NCBI GenBank assembly: GCA_003553485.1
Contig: PWEJ01000066.1
Location: 1 to 60,205, forward strand
Reading direction: 5' to 3'
DNA from: Halanaerobiaceae bacterium
GTDB taxonomy: Bacteria > Bacillota > Halanaerobiia > Halanaerobiales > Halarsenatibacteraceae
DNA: 60,205 nt
Under the pieces are notes generated by a model that searched no databases, was not told the DNA's origin, and was given only the letters and a program-made list of their open reading frames with translations. The translations under genes and the position numbers were made by a program. This document shows, piece by piece, positions 7,203 to 58,085 of this stretch (position 1 is its first letter; every line of letters starts with the position of its first letter).

Positions 7203-8168
7203 TCAAACAAGCTCCTGAGCTAAATCTAAAGCATGATAGCTGATAATTAAATCAGCTCCAGCTCTTTTCATGGCCAATAAGCTTTCTTTTAATACTGCCC
7301 TGGCAGAAACCAAACCGGCCTGACCACCATTTTTTATCAGAGAATACTCTCCACTAACATTGTAGGCTGCTACTGGAATATTTACTTCCTGCTTCACCCT
7401 GTAAATAATATCCAGGTAAGCCAGAGCAGGTTTTACCATTATTATATCTGCTCCCTCTTCTACGTCAAGCAAAGCTTCTCTTAAAGCTTCTCGAGCATTA
7501 CCGGGATTCATTTGATGGGAGCGCCTATCTCCAAAATCAGGTGAAGACTCACAGGCATCTCTAAAGGGACCATAATAAGCTGAGGCATACTTAGCGGCAT
7601 AGGACATAATGGGAATATCATAAAAATCTTCCTCATCCAATTTCTCTCTTATAGCCTGAACCCGGCCATCCATCATATCAGAGGGGGCAACCATATCTGC
7701 GCCACTCTCCACATGCGAGAGGGCTGTTTCAGTCAGATAGGGAAGAGTAGCGTCGTTCTTTATTTCTCCTTCTTCAACTATACCGCAATGACCATGAGAG
7801 GTGTAGCCGCAGAGACAGACATCGGTTATCAAATACAGCTGAGGAAACTCCTCTTTCAGTAGTCGGCAGGCTTTTTGCACTGGGCCCTGGGGAGAACGAG
7901 AACTACTGCCGGTCTTATCTCTCTTTTGCGGGATACCGAATAACAAAACCCCTTTGATTCCTTCCTGAACAATTTTTTCAGCCTCAGCTCGCAATCTATC
8001 ATCAGGAGATAGATGATAACAGCCTGGCAGGGAGGGAATTTCACTTTTGATATCCTTACCCTCTTTAATGAATAAAGGGTAGATTAGATCATCAGCTGTT
8101 AGCTTAGTCTCTACCACCAGGTCTCTTAAATTATTATTTTTTCTCAATCTCCGAGGTCTTTTTATCAT
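7203..8168 (-). CDS. hemB: Porphobilinogen synthase (5-aminolevulinate dehydratase)
   Basis: A 321-residue enzyme that condenses two 5-aminolevulinate molecules to porphobilinogen. The zinc cysteine triad DVCLCGYTSHGHCG is at Cys118, Cys120 and Cys128, marking a zinc-dependent form. Catalytic lysines fit Lys193 (SYAAKYASAYYGPFRDA) and Lys246 (IIMVKPALAYLD). The length matches the family. AGGAG sits about 10 bases before the ATG. It lies inside the heme operon between ahbC (40-base gap) and ahbD (contact or 4-base overlap). Confidence 0.96.
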   Translation of the reverse strand: MIKRPRRLRKNNNLRDLVVETKLTADDLIYPLFIKEGKDIKSEIPSLPGCYHLSPDDRLRAEAEKIVQEGIKGVLLFGIPQKRDKTGSSSRSPQGPVQKACRLLKEEFPQLYLITDVCLCGYTSHGHCGIVEEGEIKNDATLPYLTETALSHVESGADMVAPSDMMDGRVQAIREKLDEEDFYDIPIMSYAAKYASAYYGPFRDACESSPDFGDRRSHQMNPGNAREALREALLDVEEGADIIMVKPALAYLDIIYRVKQEVNIPVAAYNVSGEYSLIKNGGQAGLVSARAVLKESLLAMKRAGADLIISYHALDLAQELV

Positions 8169-8208
8169 TAATTTTCACTCCTCAAGCCAATCCTTTGCTT
8201 TATATGAT

Positions 8209-9393
8209 CTAAATTTCAACGTTGTGATTTAACTCTTCAGCTGTTAGATAACAACCGGGATCTTCAGCCCAGAGGTCTTTCTTTAAAGCCTCAGCTCTGG
8301 CCCTAAAATTACCGTTACAAAAATCGAGCCAATTACAACCGCTGCAATTTCCTTTAAGATGTTTTTCTTTTTCTCTAAATTTTTTAAGCAAAGCCGGTGG
8401 TCTTGTCTTCCATATCTCCTTTAAAGGTCTCTCGGTGATATTGCCTAATTTATAATTCATAGTGAACTGATCCGGGTAGACATTTCCGGCCCAATCTACA
8501 CAACCGATGGCTATGCCTGAGCGATTACCTCCGTTATACTTAAGATACTCTTTCACTTTATTAGCTCTGGGGTCCTGAGCTGCTAGTAACTGCAAATATA
8601 AATAAATGCCATCCACATGGTTGGCCACTGTTAAAATTTCTTTATTGCTGTTTCGGGCTAAAACTTTTCTACTGCGATTAATTATATAATCAATGGTCTC
8701 CCGGGTTTCAGCAGCAGTCAGTGAGGAGCTATTAAGTTTACTGCCCCGACCCTGATGGACTAAATGATAAAAACAAAGGCGCTCAATCTCTTCCTCCAGC
8801 ATAAGGTCAAAAATAGCTGGTATTTCGGTAATATTATCTGCCGTCATGGTAAAGCGCAGGCCCACTCTTTGGCCTACCTGCTGGCAGTTCTTTATGCCCC
8901 TCAAGGCCTGGCTGTAGGCTTTTTCTGTTCCTCTGAATTTATTATGGGTGGAAGCCAGACCATCGATACTAATACCAATATAACTTACGCCCAACTTTTT
9001 TAGTTTCGTAGATATATCGGCAGTCAGCAGAGTACCATTGGTAGAGAGGGTGACCCTGATTCCTAAGTTTCTGGCATACTCAATTAATTCCAGCATATCA
9101 TCACGCATTAAAGGCTCCCCGCCAGAGATTAACAGGACAGGCGTCTTAATATCTTTCAGTTGCTCAAGAAAATCTCTGGCTTCAGCTGTGGAAAGCTCTT
9201 CCACGGCCTGGTTTTTATCTGAACCAGCATAGCAGTGCTGGCAGGAAAGATTGCAGGCTTTAGTGGCATTCCAGACAATTACCGGCCCTGCATTGCTGTG
9301 AGTTCCTGTCCTGGTCTGCTGGCTATCTTTACTATATCTGAGCTTATCTCCAAAACTTTCTGCTCCAGTGAGCATTTTGCTTAAATTTAACAA
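8209..9393 (-). CDS. ahbC: AhbC-type radical SAM 12,18-didecarboxysiroheme deacetylase
   Basis: About 394 residues. The radical SAM motif CNLSCQHC (Cys47, Cys51, Cys54) is followed by LLISGGEPLMRDDM. AhbC-specific features are CFYHLVHQGRG near residue 195, the NGGNRSGIAIGCVDWAGNVYPDQF segment, and the Cys cluster CSGCNWLDFC near the C-terminus. AhbC removes the C2 and C7 acetate side chains, giving Fe-coproporphyrin III. I choose TTG at 9393: it has GGTGA upstream and gives an N-terminus like the family's (MLNLSKMLTGAESFGD). The gap to the cobA/hemD stop is one base. Confidence 0.88.
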   Translation of the reverse strand: MLNLSKMLTGAESFGDKLRYSKDSQQTRTGTHSNAGPVIVWNATKACNLSCQHCYAGSDKNQAVEELSTAEARDFLEQLKDIKTPVLLISGGEPLMRDDMLELIEYARNLGIRVTLSTNGTLLTADISTKLKKLGVSYIGISIDGLASTHNKFRGTEKAYSQALRGIKNCQQVGQRVGLRFTMTADNITEIPAIFDLMLEEEIERLCFYHLVHQGRGSKLNSSSLTAAETRETIDYIINRSRKVLARNSNKEILTVANHVDGIYLYLQLLAAQDPRANKVKEYLKYNGGNRSGIAIGCVDWAGNVYPDQFTMNYKLGNITERPLKEIWKTRPPALLKKFREKEKHLKGNCSGCNWLDFCNGNFRARAEALKKDLWAEDPGCYLTAEELNHNVEI

Positions 9394-9394
9394 T

Positions 9395-10933
9395 CTATTC
9401 ACCAACCTGGTAATAATCGATTATGGCCTGATAGAGGCCGGGAATATTATAGGACTCAGCCTCAATACTAACCTTAAGCCCCTGCTGTCGGACTGTTCTG
9501 GATGTTATCGGACCTATGGTGGCTATATTGAGATTGGCCAGTAATTCTTTATTATCTATACCAGCTAAAAAGCTTTCCACAGTGGAAGAACTGGTAAAGG
9601 TGATAACATCATAAATATTATTTTCAAGATCCCTTAAAACATCTTCGGGGAGTTGACCTGCAGCTGTATTATAGGCTGGCACCTCATCGACCTGACAGCC
9701 TAACCGGCTTAATTCATCCTGCAGTAAAGAGCGAGCTTTAGGTGTTCTGGGAAGTAAAATTTTTGTTTCTGCCGGAGAATTAATTCTTTTCTTTAAGCCA
9801 GCCAGCAGACTTTCTGCCACATATTCCTCCGGAACAAAATCAACCTTTAGCCCCTTTTCTTCTAGAGCTGCAGCTGTTTTGTTGCCGATAGCAGCTAGCT
9901 TGGTACCGGCCATTTCTCTAATGTCCTGACCATTAGTCTGAAAGCGCTGAAAGAACTTCTCCACACCATTGGTGCTGGTAAAGATGAGCCAGTTATAGGT
10001 CGCGATATCTTCTAAGGCCTGGTCCAGGGCAGTGTAAGACTCCGGTTTAGTGATTTTAATTGCCGGAGCTTCTCTAACGATTGCGCCAGCCTGCTGTAAC
10101 ATTTTGGTGAAACTTCTGGCCTGATCTTTAGGTCTGGTATTAATTACCCGTAGACCAGCGAGCGCACCCGGGATAGACCATTTTAGGCTCTTGCCCAGCT
10201 TGACAACCTCTCCCATGATTATTATGGCCGGCGGTTTGATATTTTTTTCCACCACTTCTTGACTGGCCTTTTTAAGGGTAGTATAAACTTCTCTTTGTTC
10301 AGGTCTGCTGCCCTTTTCAATCATCGCCACCGGTGTTTCAGCATCCCGACCATAGGATAATAGTTTTTCACTGATTTCCGGTAGATTATTGACTCCCATC
10401 AAAAAGATTAAAGTCTCCGGGCCCCGGGCCAGGGATTTCCAGTCATGACTGCTGGATTCCTTATTGGGATCCTCATGTCCGGTGATAATAGCCGCTGAAG
10501 CTGAAACTCCTCTGCTGGTTGCTGGTATGCCAGCATAGGCCGGTACTGATAAAGCAGAGGTTATACCCGGTACAATTTCAAAGGCAATATCAGCTTTATT
10601 TAAATGCTCTGCCTCTTCCCCTCCCCGGCCAAAGAGAAAGGGATCGCCTCCCTTTAATCTGACCACCAATTTACCCTGTTGAGCTTTCTCGGCCAGGGTT
10701 TCATTGATTTCCTGCTGGGTCAAGCGGTGGTCACCAGGTTTCTTACCGGCATATATTAACTCACAATCTTCCTTTACATAATTGAGCAAAGCATTTTCTA
10801 TCAAACGATCATAAACTACTACCTCTGCCTCTTCTAATAATTTTCTACCTTTACAGGTTAAAAGTCCAGGGGCCCCTGGACCTGCTCCTACTAAAAAGAC
10901 TCGCCCCTTTTTTGCAAAGCCATTATTCAACAT
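9395..10933 (-). CDS. cobA/hemD: Fused uroporphyrinogen-III C-methyltransferase / uroporphyrinogen-III synthase
   Basis: A 512-residue two-domain protein. Residues 8-250 are the SUMT domain (FLVGAGPGAPGLLTCKG, VVRLKGGDPFLFGRGGEE, VPGITSALSVPAYAGIP), which methylates uroporphyrinogen III at C2 and C7 to precorrin-2. Residues about 262-510 are the HemD domain (VINTRPKDQARSF, WLIFTSTNGVEKFF, FTSSSTVESF, ATIGPITSRTVRQQGL), which closes hydroxymethylbilane to uroporphyrinogen III. The fusion is common in clostridia and couples two consecutive steps. The start is the ATG at 10933, one base after the hemC stop, eight bases after AAGGA in hemC's last codons. Confidence 0.94.
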   Translation of the reverse strand: MLNNGFAKKGRVFLVGAGPGAPGLLTCKGRKLLEEAEVVVYDRLIENALLNYVKEDCELIYAGKKPGDHRLTQQEINETLAEKAQQGKLVVRLKGGDPFLFGRGGEEAEHLNKADIAFEIVPGITSALSVPAYAGIPATSRGVSASAAIITGHEDPNKESSSHDWKSLARGPETLIFLMGVNNLPEISEKLLSYGRDAETPVAMIEKGSRPEQREVYTTLKKASQEVVEKNIKPPAIIIMGEVVKLGKSLKWSIPGALAGLRVINTRPKDQARSFTKMLQQAGAIVREAPAIKITKPESYTALDQALEDIATYNWLIFTSTNGVEKFFQRFQTNGQDIREMAGTKLAAIGNKTAAALEEKGLKVDFVPEEYVAESLLAGLKKRINSPAETKILLPRTPKARSLLQDELSRLGCQVDEVPAYNTAAGQLPEDVLRDLENNIYDVITFTSSSTVESFLAGIDNKELLANLNIATIGPITSRTVRQQGLKVSIEAESYNIPGLYQAIIDYYQVGE

Positions 10934-10934
10934 T

Positions 10935-11849
10935 TTAGCCATCCTTTCCTAGCAGTCTGTCAGCGCCTTCGGCCAATAATTCCTGGGCCAATTCTTCAGC
11001 TACTGCTACAAAATTCTGCTTATCTCCCTCTTTACTTTGCCGACAGAAACTCTTTCCTGCCGGGTCTCCCACCATGGCAATTATAGATATTTTTTCACCC
11101 TTTATCCTGGCAAAACAGCCGATGGGGACATGACATCCGCCGCCAAGGGCTGCTAATAATTTTCTCTCTGCCTGTACTTGAATTGCGGTATTGGGATCTT
11201 CTATTCTCTTTAAAAGTTCAAATATATCCTGGTCCTCTTCCCGTATCTCGATAGCCAGGGCTCCCTGGCCTGGAGCAGGAAGAAAATCATAGGGAGATAG
11301 ATAACAGCTGATAACCTCAGTTAGCTCCAGACGTTTTAAGCCTGCTGCTGCCAGGATTAATCCCTGAAAATCCTCTTTCTCTAACTTGGCCAGTCGGGTA
11401 TTTACATTTCCCCTGATGGAAGCTACTTTCAGATCTGGACGCCGCTGTTTAAGCTGGGCCTGGCGTCGCAAACTTCCGGTTGCTACAGTACTTCCAGCCG
11501 GCAAATCAGTTAGACCTCTAAATCCCGGGGCTACAAGAACATCCCGGGGGTCTTCTCGATTTAAATAACAGGCTATTTTAAGCCCAGCCGGAAGCTCAGT
11601 GGGAACATCTTTTAAGCTATGGACAGCAAGATCTATCTCACCAGAAATTAATGCCTTTTCAATCTCCTTGAGAAAAACTCCTTTACCTTCAATCTCAGCC
11701 AGAGGTTTATCTAAAATCTTATCACCCTGGGTGATAATCTCTTTGATTTCAATAGTTAAATCATATTTTTGTTGAAGAGTTTTTTTCACTCTGTCAGCTT
11801 GAGCTAAGGCCAGTTCACTGGCTCTAGTTCCAATGACTATTTTATTCAT
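10935..11849 (-). CDS. hemC: Hydroxymethylbilane synthase (porphobilinogen deaminase)
   Basis: A 304-residue enzyme that polymerises four porphobilinogens to hydroxymethylbilane. Motifs: IGTRASELALAQ at the N-terminus, HSLKDVPTE (catalytic Asp region), TGSLRRQAQL, IRGNVNTRLAKL, and ALGGGCHVPIG, where Cys near 239 carries the dipyrromethane cofactor. The ATG at 11849 is chosen over an upstream one 12 codons earlier because AAAGGGG lies 6-7 bases before it and the protein then begins at the family's normal point. The start overlaps the sirC stop by 8 bases. Confidence 0.95.
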   Translation of the reverse strand: MNKIVIGTRASELALAQADRVKKTLQQKYDLTIEIKEIITQGDKILDKPLAEIEGKGVFLKEIEKALISGEIDLAVHSLKDVPTELPAGLKIACYLNREDPRDVLVAPGFRGLTDLPAGSTVATGSLRRQAQLKQRRPDLKVASIRGNVNTRLAKLEKEDFQGLILAAAGLKRLELTEVISCYLSPYDFLPAPGQGALAIEIREEDQDIFELLKRIEDPNTAIQVQAERKLLAALGGGCHVPIGCFARIKGEKISIIAMVGDPAGKSFCRQSKEGDKQNFVAVAEELAQELLAEGADRLLGKDG

Positions 11850-12543
11850 CAATTTCCCCTTTCTGCTGTAATGAAATATCGGCAATTACTTCTTCTATTT
11901 CCTTTCCTATAGATGACGGCAATATATCCAATAGCAACTCTATTGCCTGCTCTAAGTTTTCATTTTGGAGGTAATCTTCAATCTTTTCATCCCCCAGCTT
12001 ACGAAAAAGCCTTTTTCTTTCAGCTGGAGATACGTTATCTTTTATTAAAGGTCGCAGCTTATCCAGCAAATCAAGATAGTTAGCATAAGCCGGTCCGTAT
12101 TGACAGGTTAATTTTTCTTTAATCGTTGCTGCTAAAGCCGGGCTAGTACCTGTGGTCCCTATAGCAATAGCTAATTTACCCTGCTTAAAAGAAGCCAGGC
12201 CGGTAAAGCTGGATAAAGCAGGGTTATCAACTACATTGACCAGAATATTTTTTTGCTTGGCCTGGACAGCAATCTGTTGATTTAACTTTTTATCAGAGGT
12301 GGCAGCGATTATCAGAAATTTATCCTCCAGATCTTTCTGCAAAAAAGAGCGCTGTTTAAAATTTATTTCGTTATTCTGAAGAAACTCCAGTAATTCTCTG
12401 TTAAAATTAAGGCTGATAACCTCAATATCAGCCCCGGTAACAGCCAGGTTCTTAACTTTTCTAAAGGCTACCTTACCTCCACCGACAATCAAACAGCTCC
12501 GGCTCTTTAGGTTTAACTCTACTGGATAAAGATTGCAGCTCAT
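11842..12543 (-). CDS. sirC: Precorrin-2 dehydrogenase / possible sirohydrochlorin ferrochelatase (SirC/Met8-like)
   Basis: A 233-residue Met8/CysG-N-type protein. The NAD-binding loop LIVGGGKVAFRKVKNL is at residues 18-33, and the conserved aspartate that serves both reactions in this family fits Asp106 in NVVDNPALSSF. FKQGKLAIAIGTTGTSPALA follows. It oxidises precorrin-2 to sirohydrochlorin with NAD. No separate ferrochelatase (SirB, CbiK or CbiX) is seen in the operon, so this protein may also insert iron, or a chelatase lies elsewhere. It follows hemA after 56 bases and overlaps hemC by 8. Confidence 0.9.
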   Translation of the reverse strand: MSCNLYPVELNLKSRSCLIVGGGKVAFRKVKNLAVTGADIEVISLNFNRELLEFLQNNEINFKQRSFLQKDLEDKFLIIAATSDKKLNQQIAVQAKQKNILVNVVDNPALSSFTGLASFKQGKLAIAIGTTGTSPALAATIKEKLTCQYGPAYANYLDLLDKLRPLIKDNVSPAERKRLFRKLGDEKIEDYLQNENLEQAIELLLDILPSSIGKEIEEVIADISLQQKGEIDE

Positions 12544-12599
12544 TATTTTCCTCCATCCCCGCTATATTGCATCTAAAGGTTGTAAAAAGGTTGTAAAAA

Positions 12600-13883
12600 T
12601 TAAATTGACAGATCAAAGAGCTGGGAAAAAAGTTCAAATTCATCCCTGTCTCGATCCTGCTCACCATTCTCAGCTATTATCTTTTTCATGTTAACTAAAG
12701 GGTTATGCAAAAGCTGCTGCATTAATCTGCGGCTAAAATCTGAGATGATTTCCTGCTCCTCAGAAGAAAGGTCCGAACGGGCAGATAATTTATTGAATGC
12801 TCTTTCTAACTCTGACTGGCGAATGTTTTCTGCTTTATTTTGCAGGGCCTTAATCAGGGGCACAGCCTTTCTTTTCTCCCACCAGGTTTTAAAGTCCTTA
12901 TATTCTGTGGCAATAATTTCTTCCACTGCTGCCGCCTCTTCCTCCCGCTCTTCTAAATTTTCTAAGACAATTTTCTCTAAATCATCGACGACATATAAAT
13001 TTACCGTCGATAGTCTCTTAAGCTCAGGGTCAATATCTCGCGGCACTGCCAAATCTATAAATAACTGAGGTGAAGTTCTTAAACTGAGATTTTCTTCATG
13101 TTTCTCTTTATAAATTATGGGATGGGGGGCACTGGTTGAACTTATGATTACATCAAACTCTTTAATCCTCTGGGGTAATTCCTTAAGGGAAAGGGCTTTT
13201 CCCTGATATTTTTCTGCTAAAGCTCTGGATTTATCCCTACTGCGGTTAGCTATAGTCGGGCTAGCAGCACCTCGCTCTAAAAGATTTTTCAGTACCACTT
13301 TTCCCATCTCTCCAGCCCCAATTATTAAGGTCGAGCATTCTTTGATTTGGGGTAATATATCCTCGGCCAATTTAACTGCTGCATAGCCCACGGAAGCAGC
13401 TTTATTGCAGATTTTAGTTTCTGCCCTTGCTCTTTTACCTACCTTGAGGGCCCGGGCAAAGACCTCATGTAAATATGTATCACAAAAATCATTATTTCTG
13501 GCCCTTTCATAAGCTGTTCTAACCTGTCCCAGAACCTGTGGCTCCCCTTTTATCATAGAATTTAAACCGGCAGCAACTTTAAAGAGATGTATTATAGCCC
13601 TGGAATCTTCATAGCTATAGAGAAAACTGGCTAACTCTACTTTTTGACCTGCTTCCCGCTGAAAAATATTGCTGGCCAATTTCTTAGCCTCGGTCTTTTT
13701 ACCGGTGGAAAGATATATTTCACTTCTATTGCAGGTATTAATTATAACTGCACCCTTGATAAAGGGAGCAGATCTAAGTTCTTTTAATATTTTAATTTTA
13801 TTTTTTTCCGTAAAGGCCAGCAATTCTCGAACCTCAATCGGAGCAGTTTCATGGTTGAGGCCTAGATTTACTATTTTCGGCAT
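12600..13883 (-). CDS. hemA: Glutamyl-tRNA reductase
   Basis: A 427-residue enzyme that reduces Glu-tRNA(Glu) to glutamate-1-semialdehyde with NADPH, the committed step of tetrapyrrole synthesis. The catalytic Cys51 is in IINTCNRSEIY. GLNHETAPIEVRE opens the protein, the Rossmann motif LIIGAGEMGKVVLKNL is near residue 185, and NRSRDKSRALAEKY follows. The C-terminal dimerisation helix (LMQQLLHNPLVNMKK) is complete. It is the first tetrapyrrole gene of the operon, 27 bases after ppa, with GGGGAGG upstream. No heme-responsive motif is evident in the N-terminus. Confidence 0.95.
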   Translation of the reverse strand: MPKIVNLGLNHETAPIEVRELLAFTEKNKIKILKELRSAPFIKGAVIINTCNRSEIYLSTGKKTEAKKLASNIFQREAGQKVELASFLYSYEDSRAIIHLFKVAAGLNSMIKGEPQVLGQVRTAYERARNNDFCDTYLHEVFARALKVGKRARAETKICNKAASVGYAAVKLAEDILPQIKECSTLIIGAGEMGKVVLKNLLERGAASPTIANRSRDKSRALAEKYQGKALSLKELPQRIKEFDVIISSTSAPHPIIYKEKHEENLSLRTSPQLFIDLAVPRDIDPELKRLSTVNLYVVDDLEKIVLENLEEREEEAAAVEEIIATEYKDFKTWWEKRKAVPLIKALQNKAENIRQSELERAFNKLSARSDLSSEEQEIISDFSRRLMQQLLHNPLVNMKKIIAENGEQDRDRDEFELFSQLFDLSI

Positions 13884-13910: not shown

Positions 13911-14555
13911 CTAGTTGTTGATGGCAAAATTATTTTTATAATCTTCTCTGGAAGCTTTAATTACCTCCTGGGCTCTTTCTTTATCATAGATAGAGAGAAC
14001 TTCACAAACAGGGTTATCAGTATGAGGGTAGGATTTATAGCTTAAAAAATAATGCTTGATACGAGAAAGTATATCCTCGGGCAGGTCATTGATTTTTTTA
14101 TAATCACCATAAACGGCATCATCTTTCAAAACAGCAATAATTTTATCATCTGCTTCCCCTTTATCCAGAAGAGCAATCCCCCCAATTGGCCGAGCAGTGA
14201 GCATTATTTCTCCATGGGGAATAATTTTTTCAGTTAAGACCATGATATCCAGGGGGTCTTTATCACCTTTGATCTCCCTATCTTCTTTAAGATCCTGTTG
14301 CATTATTTTAGCTGTCTTATCAGCACAATAAGTTTGAGGAACCATTCCATAGGGAGCAGGAGCATAACTGGAAAAACGTTGAGGGCGGTCTACTTTTAAA
14401 ATTCCACTCTTTTTGTCCAGTTCATATTTTATACCATCAGAGGGTACTAACTCTATGTATACATTTAACTCCTGGGGCAAATCTTCTCCTGGTTCCAATC
14501 CATGCCAGGGGTGAGCCTGATACCTGAAAGTTGGTTTTTCCTTTGAATTAGCCAT
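13911..14555 (-). CDS. ppa: Inorganic pyrophosphatase (family I)
   Basis: A 214-residue soluble enzyme that hydrolyses pyrophosphate. Motifs: HPWHGLEPGED near the N-terminus, FSSYAPAPYGMVPQTYC, KGDKDPLDIMVL (the metal-binding acidic cluster) and KHYFLSYKSYP. It is longer than the about 175 residues of common bacterial forms, and the HPWHG-type opening resembles the longer type-I forms. It sits 27 bases upstream of hemA on the same strand and may be the first gene of the heme operon. Whether this reflects removal of PPi from Glu-tRNA charging is inference. AAGGGAG precedes the ATG. Confidence 0.93.
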   Translation of the reverse strand: MANSKEKPTFRYQAHPWHGLEPGEDLPQELNVYIELVPSDGIKYELDKKSGILKVDRPQRFSSYAPAPYGMVPQTYCADKTAKIMQQDLKEDREIKGDKDPLDIMVLTEKIIPHGEIMLTARPIGGIALLDKGEADDKIIAVLKDDAVYGDYKKINDLPEDILSRIKHYFLSYKSYPHTDNPVCEVLSIYDKERAQEVIKASREDYKNNFAINN

Positions 14556-14634: not shown

Positions 14635-14663
14635 TTGACAATAATAAGAATAATTGTTATACT
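14635..14663 (+). promoter_or_regulatory. Strong sigma-A promoter reading into a gap without a plus-strand gene
   Basis: TTGACA (14635-14640), a 17-base spacer and TATACT (14658-14663) form a near-consensus promoter on the plus strand. It is divergent from ppa. The predicted start is near 14670, and no reading frame follows it before the terminator at 14805. Confidence 0.8.
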
Positions 14664-14669
14664 GTAAAA

Positions 14670-14838
14670 AATCATTTATTATTTTAACAATTTAAAGTCC
14701 TGTTTCAAAGCTTATAATAGCTTGTAATCAGATAACCCCCCTTTTACTTAAGGTTCACATTATACTTCTCCTCCTATCTGACAGAAGTTATCTGTCAGCA
14801 CTTAGTCCCGATTTCCCCTAATCGGGACATTTTTTTGT
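14670..14838 (+). ncRNA. Candidate stand-alone small RNA, about 169 nt
   Basis: This is the transcript expected between the strong promoter at 14635-14663 and the terminator at 14805-14836. It encodes no plausible protein. CTGACAGA and TCTGTCAG form a perfect 8-bp hairpin (about 14777-14797). Part of that hairpin, GTTATCTG, could instead pair with CAGATAAC (about 14729-14736), so two exclusive folds are possible. Unpaired stretches contain CCCCCC and CTCCTCC, which could pair with Shine-Dalgarno sequences as C-rich loops of Gram-positive small RNAs do. No known family is recognised. The promoter and terminator are seen; the regulatory role is inference. Confidence 0.55.
14805..14838 (+). terminator. 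Intrinsic terminator of the small RNA
   Basis: GTCCCGATT (14805-14813) pairs perfectly with AATCGGGAC (14820-14828) around a 6-base loop, followed by ATTTTTTT on the plus strand. The minus strand lacks a U-run, so the element works rightwards. Confidence 0.85.
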
Positions 14839-14871: not shown

Positions 14872-15366
14872 CTATTTGCTTTCTTGCTTCTTTTCTAATT
14901 GAAGCAACTGTTTTTTGAGTTCCTGACCCCACTTATATCCCCCTAAACTTCCCTCGGCCTTTATCACCCTGTGGCAGGGCAGTAAAATTGGCAGCTTATT
15001 TTTGGTTAAAACCTGTCCCACCGCTCTAGCAGCTCCAGGGTAACCGGCTTCTCTAGCTAATTCTCCATAACTTATACATTCCCCATAATCAACAAGCAAT
15101 AACTTCTGATAAACACTTTGGGCAAAATCAGTGCCCTTTATGGTAAAATTGCTGGTAAATTTCTTTCTAACCCCCTGAAAATACTGACTGAATTCCCTAA
15201 TTAATTTTTCCACTGCTGGACTGTAATTATATTTATAGTTTTCCCTTGCTTCCAGATTCTTTTTTTCTTCAGAAGAGAACTCAGGTATCACCTGCAAGAT
15301 TTCTTCTTCTTTAAAAAGCAGCAGGGTTTGGTCTAATAAGGGAAAGGTTTTTATATAATAGTGCAT
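14872..15366 (-). CDS. ogt: Methylated-DNA--protein-cysteine methyltransferase
   Basis: About 164 residues. The suicide-cysteine motif LLPCHRVIKAEGSLGGYKWG is near residues 130-149, preceded by YGECISYGELAREAGYPGAARAVGQVL, the DNA-binding helix-turn-helix with its arginine finger region. It repairs O6-methylguanine by moving the methyl to its own cysteine. The ATG at 15366 is taken as start; a TTG at 15372 would overlap the fxsA stop by four bases. It probably shares a transcript with fxsA. Confidence 0.93.
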   Translation of the reverse strand: MHYYIKTFPLLDQTLLLFKEEEILQVIPEFSSEEKKNLEARENYKYNYSPAVEKLIREFSQYFQGVRKKFTSNFTIKGTDFAQSVYQKLLLVDYGECISYGELAREAGYPGAARAVGQVLTKNKLPILLPCHRVIKAEGSLGGYKWGQELKKQLLQLEKKQESK

Positions 15367-15368
15367 AA

Positions 15369-15914
15369 TCAATCGTCCTGACTTTTACCCGTTAAAGTTC
15401 CATTGTCTGGCTCATCTTCTTCATCAAATTCATCCTCAACGGTATATTCTGCCTGAAAAGTTTCTGATTCCCTTGACTTAGATTCTTTTTGCTCTTGATT
15501 ATTTTCTTGCTGATTAGAAAAACCGAAACTACCACCAAAGAAACTCTTGGTGGTAAAGTATTTGCCCAGGATTTTTCTGGCAAACTTTGCAACCCCAGGA
15601 CGGGTGAAGGGCAATATGAATATAAAGCCTGTAACGTCGGTGATGATGCCGGGGGTTAAGAGCATGGCAGCTCCTACTAATAGCAAAAAACCCTCCACTA
15701 TATTTTGGGCAGGTATTTCAGCTCGCTGGCTGCTTTTTTTGATTTTGTCTAAAACCAAAAGACCCTGAAATTTAGCTATAGTTATTCCAATAGCACCTGT
15801 GCTGGCCACAATTAATATCATGGGAATTAACCCAATCCCCTGGCCTATTCTAATTAATAACATGAGCTCTAAAAGGGGAACAATTGTAAAGATTAATAGA
15901 AGTTTATAAAACAC
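15369..15914 (-). CDS. fxsA: FxsA family membrane protein
   Basis: A 181-residue membrane protein whose first 115 residues match FxsA: hydrophobic segments at about 4-24, 27-48 and 72-100 with ELMLLIRIGQGIGL, GFLLLVGAAMLLTPGIITDVTGFIFILPFTRP. The C-terminal 65 residues are polar and highly acidic and probably lie in the cytoplasm. In E. coli, FxsA interferes with phage T7 exclusion by F plasmids; its cellular role in other bacteria is unknown. The start is GTG at 15914 after GAGGTGA. It is the upstream partner of ogt. Confidence 0.85.
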   Translation of the reverse strand: MFYKLLLIFTIVPLLELMLLIRIGQGIGLIPMILIVASTGAIGITIAKFQGLLVLDKIKKSSQRAEIPAQNIVEGFLLLVGAAMLLTPGIITDVTGFIFILPFTRPGVAKFARKILGKYFTTKSFFGGSFGFSNQQENNQEQKESKSRESETFQAEYTVEDEFDEEDEPDNGTLTGKSQDD

Positions 15915-20394: not shown

Positions 20395-20940
20395 ATGATA
20401 AAAATCTCTGAGTTGCAAGAAGAACTCGAAATAATTCTGTCCTTTTTATGGCAAAACGCCGATTTAAAACCGGGAAATATCCTGGTCATAGGCTGTAGCA
20501 CCAGTGAAGTTCAAGGCAAGAAAATAGGCAAATCCTCTAATAAAGAAATTGCTCAAACCCTATACGCAACAATAGAGAATAAACTAAAGAACACAGATAT
20601 CTATCCTGCTTTCCAGGGGTGTGAGCATATCAACAGAGCCTTAACTATTCCCCGAGAATGCTGGCAAAGGTATGACTTTACTGAAGTTACCGTCAAACCA
20701 GTCCCAGAAGCTGGCGGCGCCATGGCTGCCACTGCCTATCAACAGATGGAAAGGCCAGTAGTGGTGGAAAATGTTAAGGCCCAGGCAGGTATCGATATCG
20801 GTGATACCTTTATTGCTATGCACTTAGAGCCAGTAGTGGTACCTCTGCGAGCTCCTATTGCTAAAATAGGCCAGGCCCATGTCACTTTAGCTAAAACCAG
20901 GCCAAAACTAATTGGTGGTCGACGAGCCCAATATCCTTAA
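20395..20940 (+). CDS. UPF0340 (TIGR01440/YwlG) family protein
   Basis: A 181-residue soluble protein closely matching the UPF0340 pattern: GNILVIGCSTSEVQGKKIGKSSN near residues 28-50, FQGCEHINRAL near 67, GGAMAATAYQ near 108, AGIDIGDTFIAMHLEPV and the ending RPKLIGGRRAQYP. The family is widespread in Bacillota, has a known fold in some members, but no assigned reaction. AAAGGAGG precedes the ATG. It is a single-gene plus-strand unit. Confidence 0.88.
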   Translation: MIKISELQEELEIILSFLWQNADLKPGNILVIGCSTSEVQGKKIGKSSNKEIAQTLYATIENKLKNTDIYPAFQGCEHINRALTIPRECWQRYDFTEVTVKPVPEAGGAMAATAYQQMERPVVVENVKAQAGIDIGDTFIAMHLEPVVVPLRAPIAKIGQAHVTLAKTRPKLIGGRRAQYP

Positions 20941-56567: not shown

Positions 56568-58085
56568 ATGAGCAAAAAACTTTTAGTACTTATGATGGCT
56601 TCTTTTTTACTGTTGGGATTATTGGTACCTGTTACTGTTATGGCAGAAGAAACCAGGGATGATCTAATAATTGCCGGAACTCAAGATCCGGACAATCTGG
56701 ATCCTCGTTTAACAACCTCAGAATATTCTCGCGAAGTAATGGAGCTAGTATATAATTCCTTGGTATATTTAAACGAGGATTTGGAGATTGAATATGATCT
56801 TGCTGAAGACCTGGAGACTCCAGATGATACAACTTATATTTTCCATTTGAGGGATGATGTCACCTGGCACGATGGCGAACCCTTTACTGCCGAAGATGTA
56901 GTTTTTACTTATGAGGCAATAGCCGATGAAGAATTTGGTTCCCCTCACCGAGATAGAACCTGGTTCGATACTGTAGAAGCTTTAGATGATTATACAGTTA
57001 AATTCACCACTGAAGAACCCAATGCGGCAACATTAACTGGTCTGCGCAGATTTATTGCCCCGGCCCATCTAGCTCCAGAAGAATCCTATGAGGAGGAGCC
57101 TGGCACTTTTGCCTATGAACCAGTGGGAACCGGCCCTTATACTTTAGAAGAATGGGTACCAGATGATTATATCAGATTAGAAAGAAATGAGGATTATTTT
57201 GAAGGCCCGGCTAATTTAGAAACAATTATCAGACGGGTAATCCCTGAAGATGAAACCAGATATACAGAGCTTCTGGCAGGCGAGGTTGACATGGCGGAAC
57301 CCCCAGAAAGAGAAATTGATGCTCTGGATCAGAATGATGATTTTACTGTCGAAAGTTCAGAGACCTTAAATTATTTCCCTGTAGCTATCAATCATGATTA
57401 TGATGGTCATGACAAATTAGATGACGTGAGAGTGCGTCAGGCGCTAAATTATGCAATAGATAAGGAGACCATAGTCAATCATATCTGGCCCACTGCCACT
57501 GTAATGCACAGCCCCATCGTTCCAGATACCTGGGCCCATGATCCGGAAGCAATTTATCAATACGAGTATAATCCGGAAAAAGCTGAGGAACTTCTGGCCG
57601 AGGCTGGCTACGAAGATGGTATAACCTTATCGCTGGTAATGTCAGATGCTACTGACAACGTTGAGTTTGGTGAGATTATTCGTCACTATTATGAAGAAGC
57701 AGGCATTAACTTAGAGGTAAATACCATGGAGTTTAGCTCAGCTTTATCTCAAATTTTAGATGGTGATTTTCAACTTTACTTCATGGGGTCAACAGGTATG
57801 TACGATCCTCATGATTTCATGAATCGCTTTACTCACGGAGAAGGAACCACTGCCTATGATAACGAAGAGTTTAATGAATTAGTAGATGAGGCAGTCACTA
57901 TTGTTGATGATCAGGATAAAAGAGCTGAATTATACTCAGAAGCTCAAAAGATTATGACAGAAGATGCCTACAATGTTCCACTTTATAACTCCCAGGTAAC
58001 CATGGCCTGGAATGCTGACTTTGATTTTAATTATAATTATATAGAACGCTATCGCAACTTGCCGGAAGCCAGCTGGTCAGAATAA
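56568..58085 (+). CDS. ABC transporter substrate-binding protein, family 5 (peptide/nickel type)
   Basis: A 505-residue periplasmic binding protein. The signal peptide (residues 1-25) ends in VMA-EE and has no lipobox cysteine, so it should be free in a periplasm; this fits a diderm cell. Family 5 motifs: DPDNLDPRLTTSEYSREVMELVYNSLV, DDVTWHDGEPFTAEDVVFTYEAI, GTGPYTLEEW, VRQALNYAIDKETIV, YNPEKAEELLAEAGY. It is very acidic. It binds peptides, opines, nickel chelates or sugars; the ligand is not predictable by eye. It opens an operon with two permeases. Confidence 0.92.
   Translation: MSKKLLVLMMASFLLLGLLVPVTVMAEETRDDLIIAGTQDPDNLDPRLTTSEYSREVMELVYNSLVYLNEDLEIEYDLAEDLETPDDTTYIFHLRDDVTWHDGEPFTAEDVVFTYEAIADEEFGSPHRDRTWFDTVEALDDYTVKFTTEEPNAATLTGLRRFIAPAHLAPEESYEEEPGTFAYEPVGTGPYTLEEWVPDDYIRLERNEDYFEGPANLETIIRRVIPEDETRYTELLAGEVDMAEPPEREIDALDQNDDFTVESSETLNYFPVAINHDYDGHDKLDDVRVRQALNYAIDKETIVNHIWPTATVMHSPIVPDTWAHDPEAIYQYEYNPEKAEELLAEAGYEDGITLSLVMSDATDNVEFGEIIRHYYEEAGINLEVNTMEFSSALSQILDGDFQLYFMGSTGMYDPHDFMNRFTHGEGTTAYDNEEFNELVDEAVTIVDDQDKRAELYSEAQKIMTEDAYNVPLYNSQVTMAWNADFDFNYNYIERYRNLPEASWSE

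Follow-up and report, generated by a model that had tools for sequence, protein, structure and literature searches.

We have located a probable small RNA (sRNA) gene, so far without a name, in a stretch of 60,205 nucleotides from a member of the Halanaerobiaceae (the window), and homologs with the same layout in a second genus of the family. That it is a real sRNA gene is very probable. The reading that we favor, and consider probable, is that the locus encodes a trans-acting noncoding sRNA, made from a sigma-70 promoter and ended by an intrinsic terminator, whose UUCUCCUCC seed would block Shine-Dalgarno (SD) sites and repress translation, possibly with Hfq. The family is new and narrowly distributed, while the kind of regulator is already known in other bacteria.

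Predicted transcription unit and flanking genes

The initial annotation had described a near-consensus promoter and a terminator enclosing a frameless stretch, and a sequence read combined with a consensus scan confirmed this for about 167 nucleotides (Table 1). The promoter, of near-consensus sigma-70 type, matches 11 of 12 consensus positions and has an extended -10 TG at 14655-14656. The predicted transcript contains no ATG or GTG, and its sole TTG directly precedes a TAA, leaving no reading frame. At the sequence level, the locus is thus an independent intergenic unit with its own promoter and terminator. Promoters matching at least 11 of 12 positions and followed by a terminator 60 to 300 nucleotides on occur twice in the 60-kb window, at the sRNA unit and at a tRNA-Arg gene; 20 Markov-randomized windows contained no such pair. 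The description of the unit as an orphan also stands, as the next sizeable plausible plus-strand gene begins only at 20395.

Table 1. Features of the sRNA locus and its flanking genes (window coordinates)
Feature	Position	Strand	Remarks
ppa (inorganic pyrophosphatase-like; name presumed from sequence recognition)	13911..14555	-	Divergent, upstream of the sRNA; syntenic landmark
sRNA promoter	14635..14663	+	-35 TTGACA (14635-14640), 17-bp spacer, -10 TATACT (14658-14663)
Imperfect palindrome ACAATAAT-N4-ATTATTGT	14638..14657	.	In the promoter spacer
Predicted sRNA	14670..14836	+	About 167 nt; start (about 14670) placed from the promoter, end from the terminator
Variable AU-rich 5' half	14670..14756	+	From homolog comparison
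Seed UUCUCCUCC (putative anti-SD)	14766..14774	+	Invariant; unpaired in predicted folds; six homologs
Hairpin CUGACAGA-AGUUA-UCUGUCAG	14778..14798	+	Conserved, just 3' of the seed
Intrinsic terminator GTCCCGATT-TCCCCT-AATCGGGAC + T7	14805..14836	+	Stem 14805-14828, 9 pairs
ogt (O6-methylguanine-DNA methyltransferase)	14872..15372	-	Convergent, downstream of the sRNA; PF01035; syntenic landmark

A promoter-like site for ppa on the minus strand (TTTACA at 14668, TATTAT at 14641) spans the sRNA promoter. This overlap would suit an account in which there is no independent gene, the elements serve ppa and ogt, and the transcript is a by-product. We consider that account quite improbable, since conservation peaks in the transcribed 3' half and not in the promoter region, and since the T run of the terminator serves the plus strand only. 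The overlapping divergent ppa promoter may be what the palindrome in the spacer reflects. The palindrome is perfect in genome G005, near-perfect in the window and in G007, and absent from G002 and G003. We examined it as a Fur/PerR-like operator and rejected this, as it is lost in two relatives and its genome-wide counts do not exceed those of a reversed-pattern control; no conserved Fur/PerR operator of the FsrA and IsrR type was found in the sRNA promoter.

The minus strand also carries a tetrapyrrole cluster (7203-13883) of hemB-like, radical SAM/SPASM, hemC-like, siroheme-synthase-like, and hemA-like genes, together with a fused uroporphyrinogen methyltransferase-HemD gene (PF00590 and PF02602). 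The radical SAM/SPASM gene suggests a siroheme-dependent (Ahb) heme route. The sRNA lies near these heme genes because it occupies a conserved slot between ppa and ogt.

Homologs and conservation

DNA searching and covariance searching, the latter proposed at the outset as a check on the sRNA, together yielded synteny-backed homologs in two genera. When 61 related genomes were searched at the DNA level, copies with 85% identity over about 95 nucleotides were found in two other species of the same genus: one in G002 and two in G003. By pattern scan, these records are the Halanaerobiaceae metagenome-assembled genomes T1Sed10_23 and T1Sed10_139. The two G003 loci are near-identical and lie on separate contigs (C86 and C117); they are probably two strain variants binned into one metagenome-assembled genome rather than a duplication. 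The adjacent Ogt protein is just 47 to 49% identical among genomes whose sRNA core is 85% identical, and the 3' half of the RNA is therefore far more constrained than the neighboring gene.

A covariance model built from the four same-genus copies (R1) gave weak matches in another genus of the family (G007, E = 0.10; G005, E = 0.17). Both matches sit, in the right orientation, exactly in the ppa-ogt junction, whose position was established independently by searching for the two proteins, and each is preceded by its own TTGACA promoter. That matches in two genomes should both fall into the single gap expected, about 200 bp wide, is not easily put down to chance. The order ppa, sRNA, ogt was found in all five family genomes with an assembled junction, which represent two genera. 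No copy was detected in G001, G004, or G006. For G001 this is explained by an assembly gap at the contig end, the contig stopping within ogt; in G004, ppa adjoins a uppP-like gene and ogt was not found; in G006, ppa was not detectable, and the closest ogt-like gene lies in a different setting.

The promoter, UUCUCCUCC, the hairpin directly 3' of it, and the terminator are constant features of the six copies. Each of the five homologs outside the window has a promoter in the same place, with TTGACA, a 17-bp spacer, and TATA(C/A)T. Of the transcribed part, the second genus keeps just UUCUCCUCC, the hairpin (with one compensatory change), and the layout; the terminator retains its place there with a wholly different sequence. 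The 5' half has no sequence common to both genera and varies in length between homologs, and the sRNA as a whole measures about 125 to 210 nucleotides depending on the species. In the G002 homolog (L003 56-200), the 5' half is expanded by AAAGTATTACTTGAAT-like repeats that form a long hairpin.

A second model (R2), comprising the R1 members and the G005 and G007 copies, found no convincing member outside the family across 59 genomes of the class; ten further matches were inspected and rejected as coding sequence, terminator-like, or chance similarity. A 17-base core pattern matched 41 stretches among 84,980 species representatives, and among those of the matched loci that were scanned with the model, the only ones to score as members were three already-known Halanaerobiales records.

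Seed, hairpin, and proposed mode of action

The transcript is predicted to fold more stably than 200 of 200 dinucleotide shuffles (z = -5.6; z = -6.9 for the 3' half), and each of the five homologous sequences examined likewise gave a stable fold (z = -3.5 to -6.9). The CU-rich seed, which is conserved and complementary to the SD sequence, stays unpaired in every fold predicted for the six copies. The synteny-backed conservation of promoter, UUCUCCUCC, hairpin, and terminator lends good support, as far as sequence comparison reaches, to the earlier proposal of a putative anti-SD seed in an orphan sRNA. The hairpin stem, whose arms in this genome are CTGACAGA/TCTGTCAG, is paired in 48 of 48 alignment cells, with seven of its eight pairs invariant; in G005 and G007 a compensatory change from C-G to U-A converts CTGACAGA/TCTGTCAG to CTGATAGA/TCTATCAG. 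This covariation represents one evolutionary event and only mildly exceeds its control, being reached by 27 of 500 shuffles.

The stems had been proposed to be switchable. Both stretches concerned, CAGATAAC (14729-14736) and GTTATCTG (14787-14794), exist, and the hairpin is kept in six copies; the alternative pairing is confined to this genome. As a conformational switch, the RNA would pair GTTATCTG either with the upstream CAGATAAC or inside the hairpin, and both pairings are indeed perfect 8-mers in this genome. The RNA is almost certainly not such a switch, however, as CAGATAAC is missing from G003, G005, and G007 and replaced by CAAATAAC in G002, none of the homologs retains the loop GTTAT, and the minimum-energy and centroid folds both contain the local hairpin. 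The CCCCCC run, which had been regarded as a further seed, likewise occurs in this genome only. Found in no homolog, the CAGATAAC/GTTATCTG pairing and the CCCCCC run are therefore probably incidental. The UCCCC loop of the terminator is restricted to this genus.

In every homolog, the loop and closing region of the hairpin could form four to six base pairs with the region of the seed (window, 14766-14790, AGAAGU:ACUUCU; G003, GAGA:UCUC; G005 and G007, UGGAG:CUCCA). These pairings could form a self-masking pseudoknot and are short enough to be due to chance.

In the mechanism that we propose, the strong sigma-70-type promoter would drive transcription and the intrinsic terminator with its U tail would end the RNA. 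The exposed UUCUCCUCC, upstream of a short stabilizing hairpin, would then pair with purine-rich SD sequences such as GGAGGAGAA in several mRNAs, so that 30S binding would be blocked and translation repressed. Hfq might hold the U-rich tail; its help is possible because of that tail and because this genome (G000) has two Hfq genes (C20:2449-2637 and C20:68787-68960), both well over the Pfam cutoff. The direct basis for this proposal is the gene anatomy, the conservation, and a seed that never varies and is predicted to be unpaired, from which we infer transcription, base pairing with SD sites, repression, any dependence on Hfq, and the identity of targets.

A real sRNA of this structure might also act through a conserved part that binds a protein or another RNA, by sponging or sequestration, rather than SD sites. 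The almost unchanged hairpin stem would fit a protein-binding site, genus g1 has a long stretch without pairing (TTTACTTA...TATACTTCTCCTCCTA) that hardly varies, and a conserved mRNA target failed to emerge in target scoring. We nevertheless regard this alternative as unlikely, since between genera the upstream part diverges while UUCUCCUCC and the hairpin stay, which is the pattern of an anti-SD seed.

Candidate targets and relation to known sRNAs

GGAGGAGAA, a strong SD sequence with its spacer, is complementary to UUCUCCUCC. It stands ahead of an ATG 20 times in this genome, compared with 2 for a reversed control, and one of these 20 start sites is the sRNA itself read in antisense. There was no sign of coevolution of target sites, as G001, G004, and G006, in which no copy was detected, carry as many GGAGGAGAA start sites as the sRNA-bearing genomes do. 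The regions scored for targets amounted to about 0.4 Mb in each genome, with the SBP genes added. When 54 start regions of the window were ranked, the best predicted duplex involved the gene at 56568-58082, which codes for the binding protein of a peptide ABC transporter (PF00496). SBP_bac_5 genes recur among the GGAGGAGAA start sites of G000, G005, and G007, three of the five sRNA-bearing genomes. Tested against backgrounds of 397 and 380 start regions, SBP start regions were favored in G000 (P = 0.02; P = 0.03 allowing for SD strength) and not significantly so in G005 (P = 0.14). Because the class was chosen after the hits were seen, this signal is partly circular and a lead only, giving a weak hint that the sRNA may act on mRNAs of peptide-transporter binding proteins. 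Another candidate shared target, kal (presumably 3-aminobutyryl-CoA ammonia-lyase-like), matches in G000, G005, and G007 and was rejected because the match is lost in G003.

The ribosome sites of the heme operon had been suggested as targets, and in the window ranking they proved unremarkable, running from sixth place to the lower ranks of the 54 (-20.9 to -12.8 kcal/mol). Fairly favorable duplexes were predicted for the 11842-12543 gene (-20.9 kcal/mol, sixth) and hemA (-20.5 kcal/mol, seventh), which would suit a regulator dedicated to the neighboring heme operon. Scores for the remaining heme genes are much weaker (-12.8 to -15.3 kcal/mol), however, and in other genomes it is ppa and ogt that define the slot; we hold such a dedicated role to be highly improbable.

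At the gathering threshold, none of the 4,227 families of Rfam 15 matched the sRNA, including the 6S and RsaE-like models that had been named as possibilities; the window's only matches were two tRNAs. The best subthreshold match was to RF02837, anti-hemB (Burkholderia RNA 7; E = 0.0012), with 24.8 bits, half the family's gathering score of 49.5. Like the sRNA, RF02837 presents CUUCUCCUCC, a hairpin, and then a terminator; the similarity lies in the CU-rich motif and the terminator, and the helix paired in the model is a different one. That an anti-hemB match should coincide with proximity to hemB is probably coincidence.

AbcR1/AbcR2 and NfeR1 of rhizobia are alphaproteobacterial anti-SD sRNAs with exposed anti-SD motifs, and the CUCCUCCC motif of AbcR1/2 represses ABC-transporter binding proteins, with verified targets (PMC8844928). 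The AbcR/NfeR1 aSD1 motif, CUCCUCCC, is nearly that of the present sRNA, and the AbcR target class is the one that gives the weak signal here. AbcR/NfeR1 belong to another phylum, however, and have two or three motifs, with aSD1 in a hairpin loop, whereas the present sRNA has one invariant motif, unpaired upstream of the hairpin, and shows neither an Rfam match nor synteny. In AT-rich genomes, the sRNAs FsrA, RoxS/RsaE, LhrC, and IsrR of low-GC, Gram-positive bacteria block SD sequences with C-rich seeds (PMC4132741, PMC9410917, PMC4409812). LhrC has CU-rich motifs in a loop, a linker, and the terminator loop, and the g1 copies have them in the linker and the terminator loop. Unlike these sRNAs, the one described here has UUCUCCUCC as its seed rather than UCCC repeats, with no Rfam match or supported Fur operator. 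The best reading is that the sRNA would work like FsrA, RoxS/RsaE, LhrC, and AbcR, a likeness of kind and not established homology. In a search of the open-licence literature for small RNAs and Halanaerobium, we found no dedicated study.

A gene that recurs in two genera at a conserved position and with an invariant seed provides a starting point for the study of riboregulation in anaerobic halophiles. A bolder and distinctly unlikely interpretation is that in the Halanaerobiales the sRNA fills the place of AbcR/NfeR/GcvB, as an anti-SD sRNA of independent origin that would lower many peptide ABC-transporter binding proteins. With the sRNA, it can be tested whether seeds of the CUCCUCC type evolve again and again for the same target class; if that interpretation is true, control of nutrient uptake by CUCCUCC seeds would have arisen separately in halophilic anaerobes.
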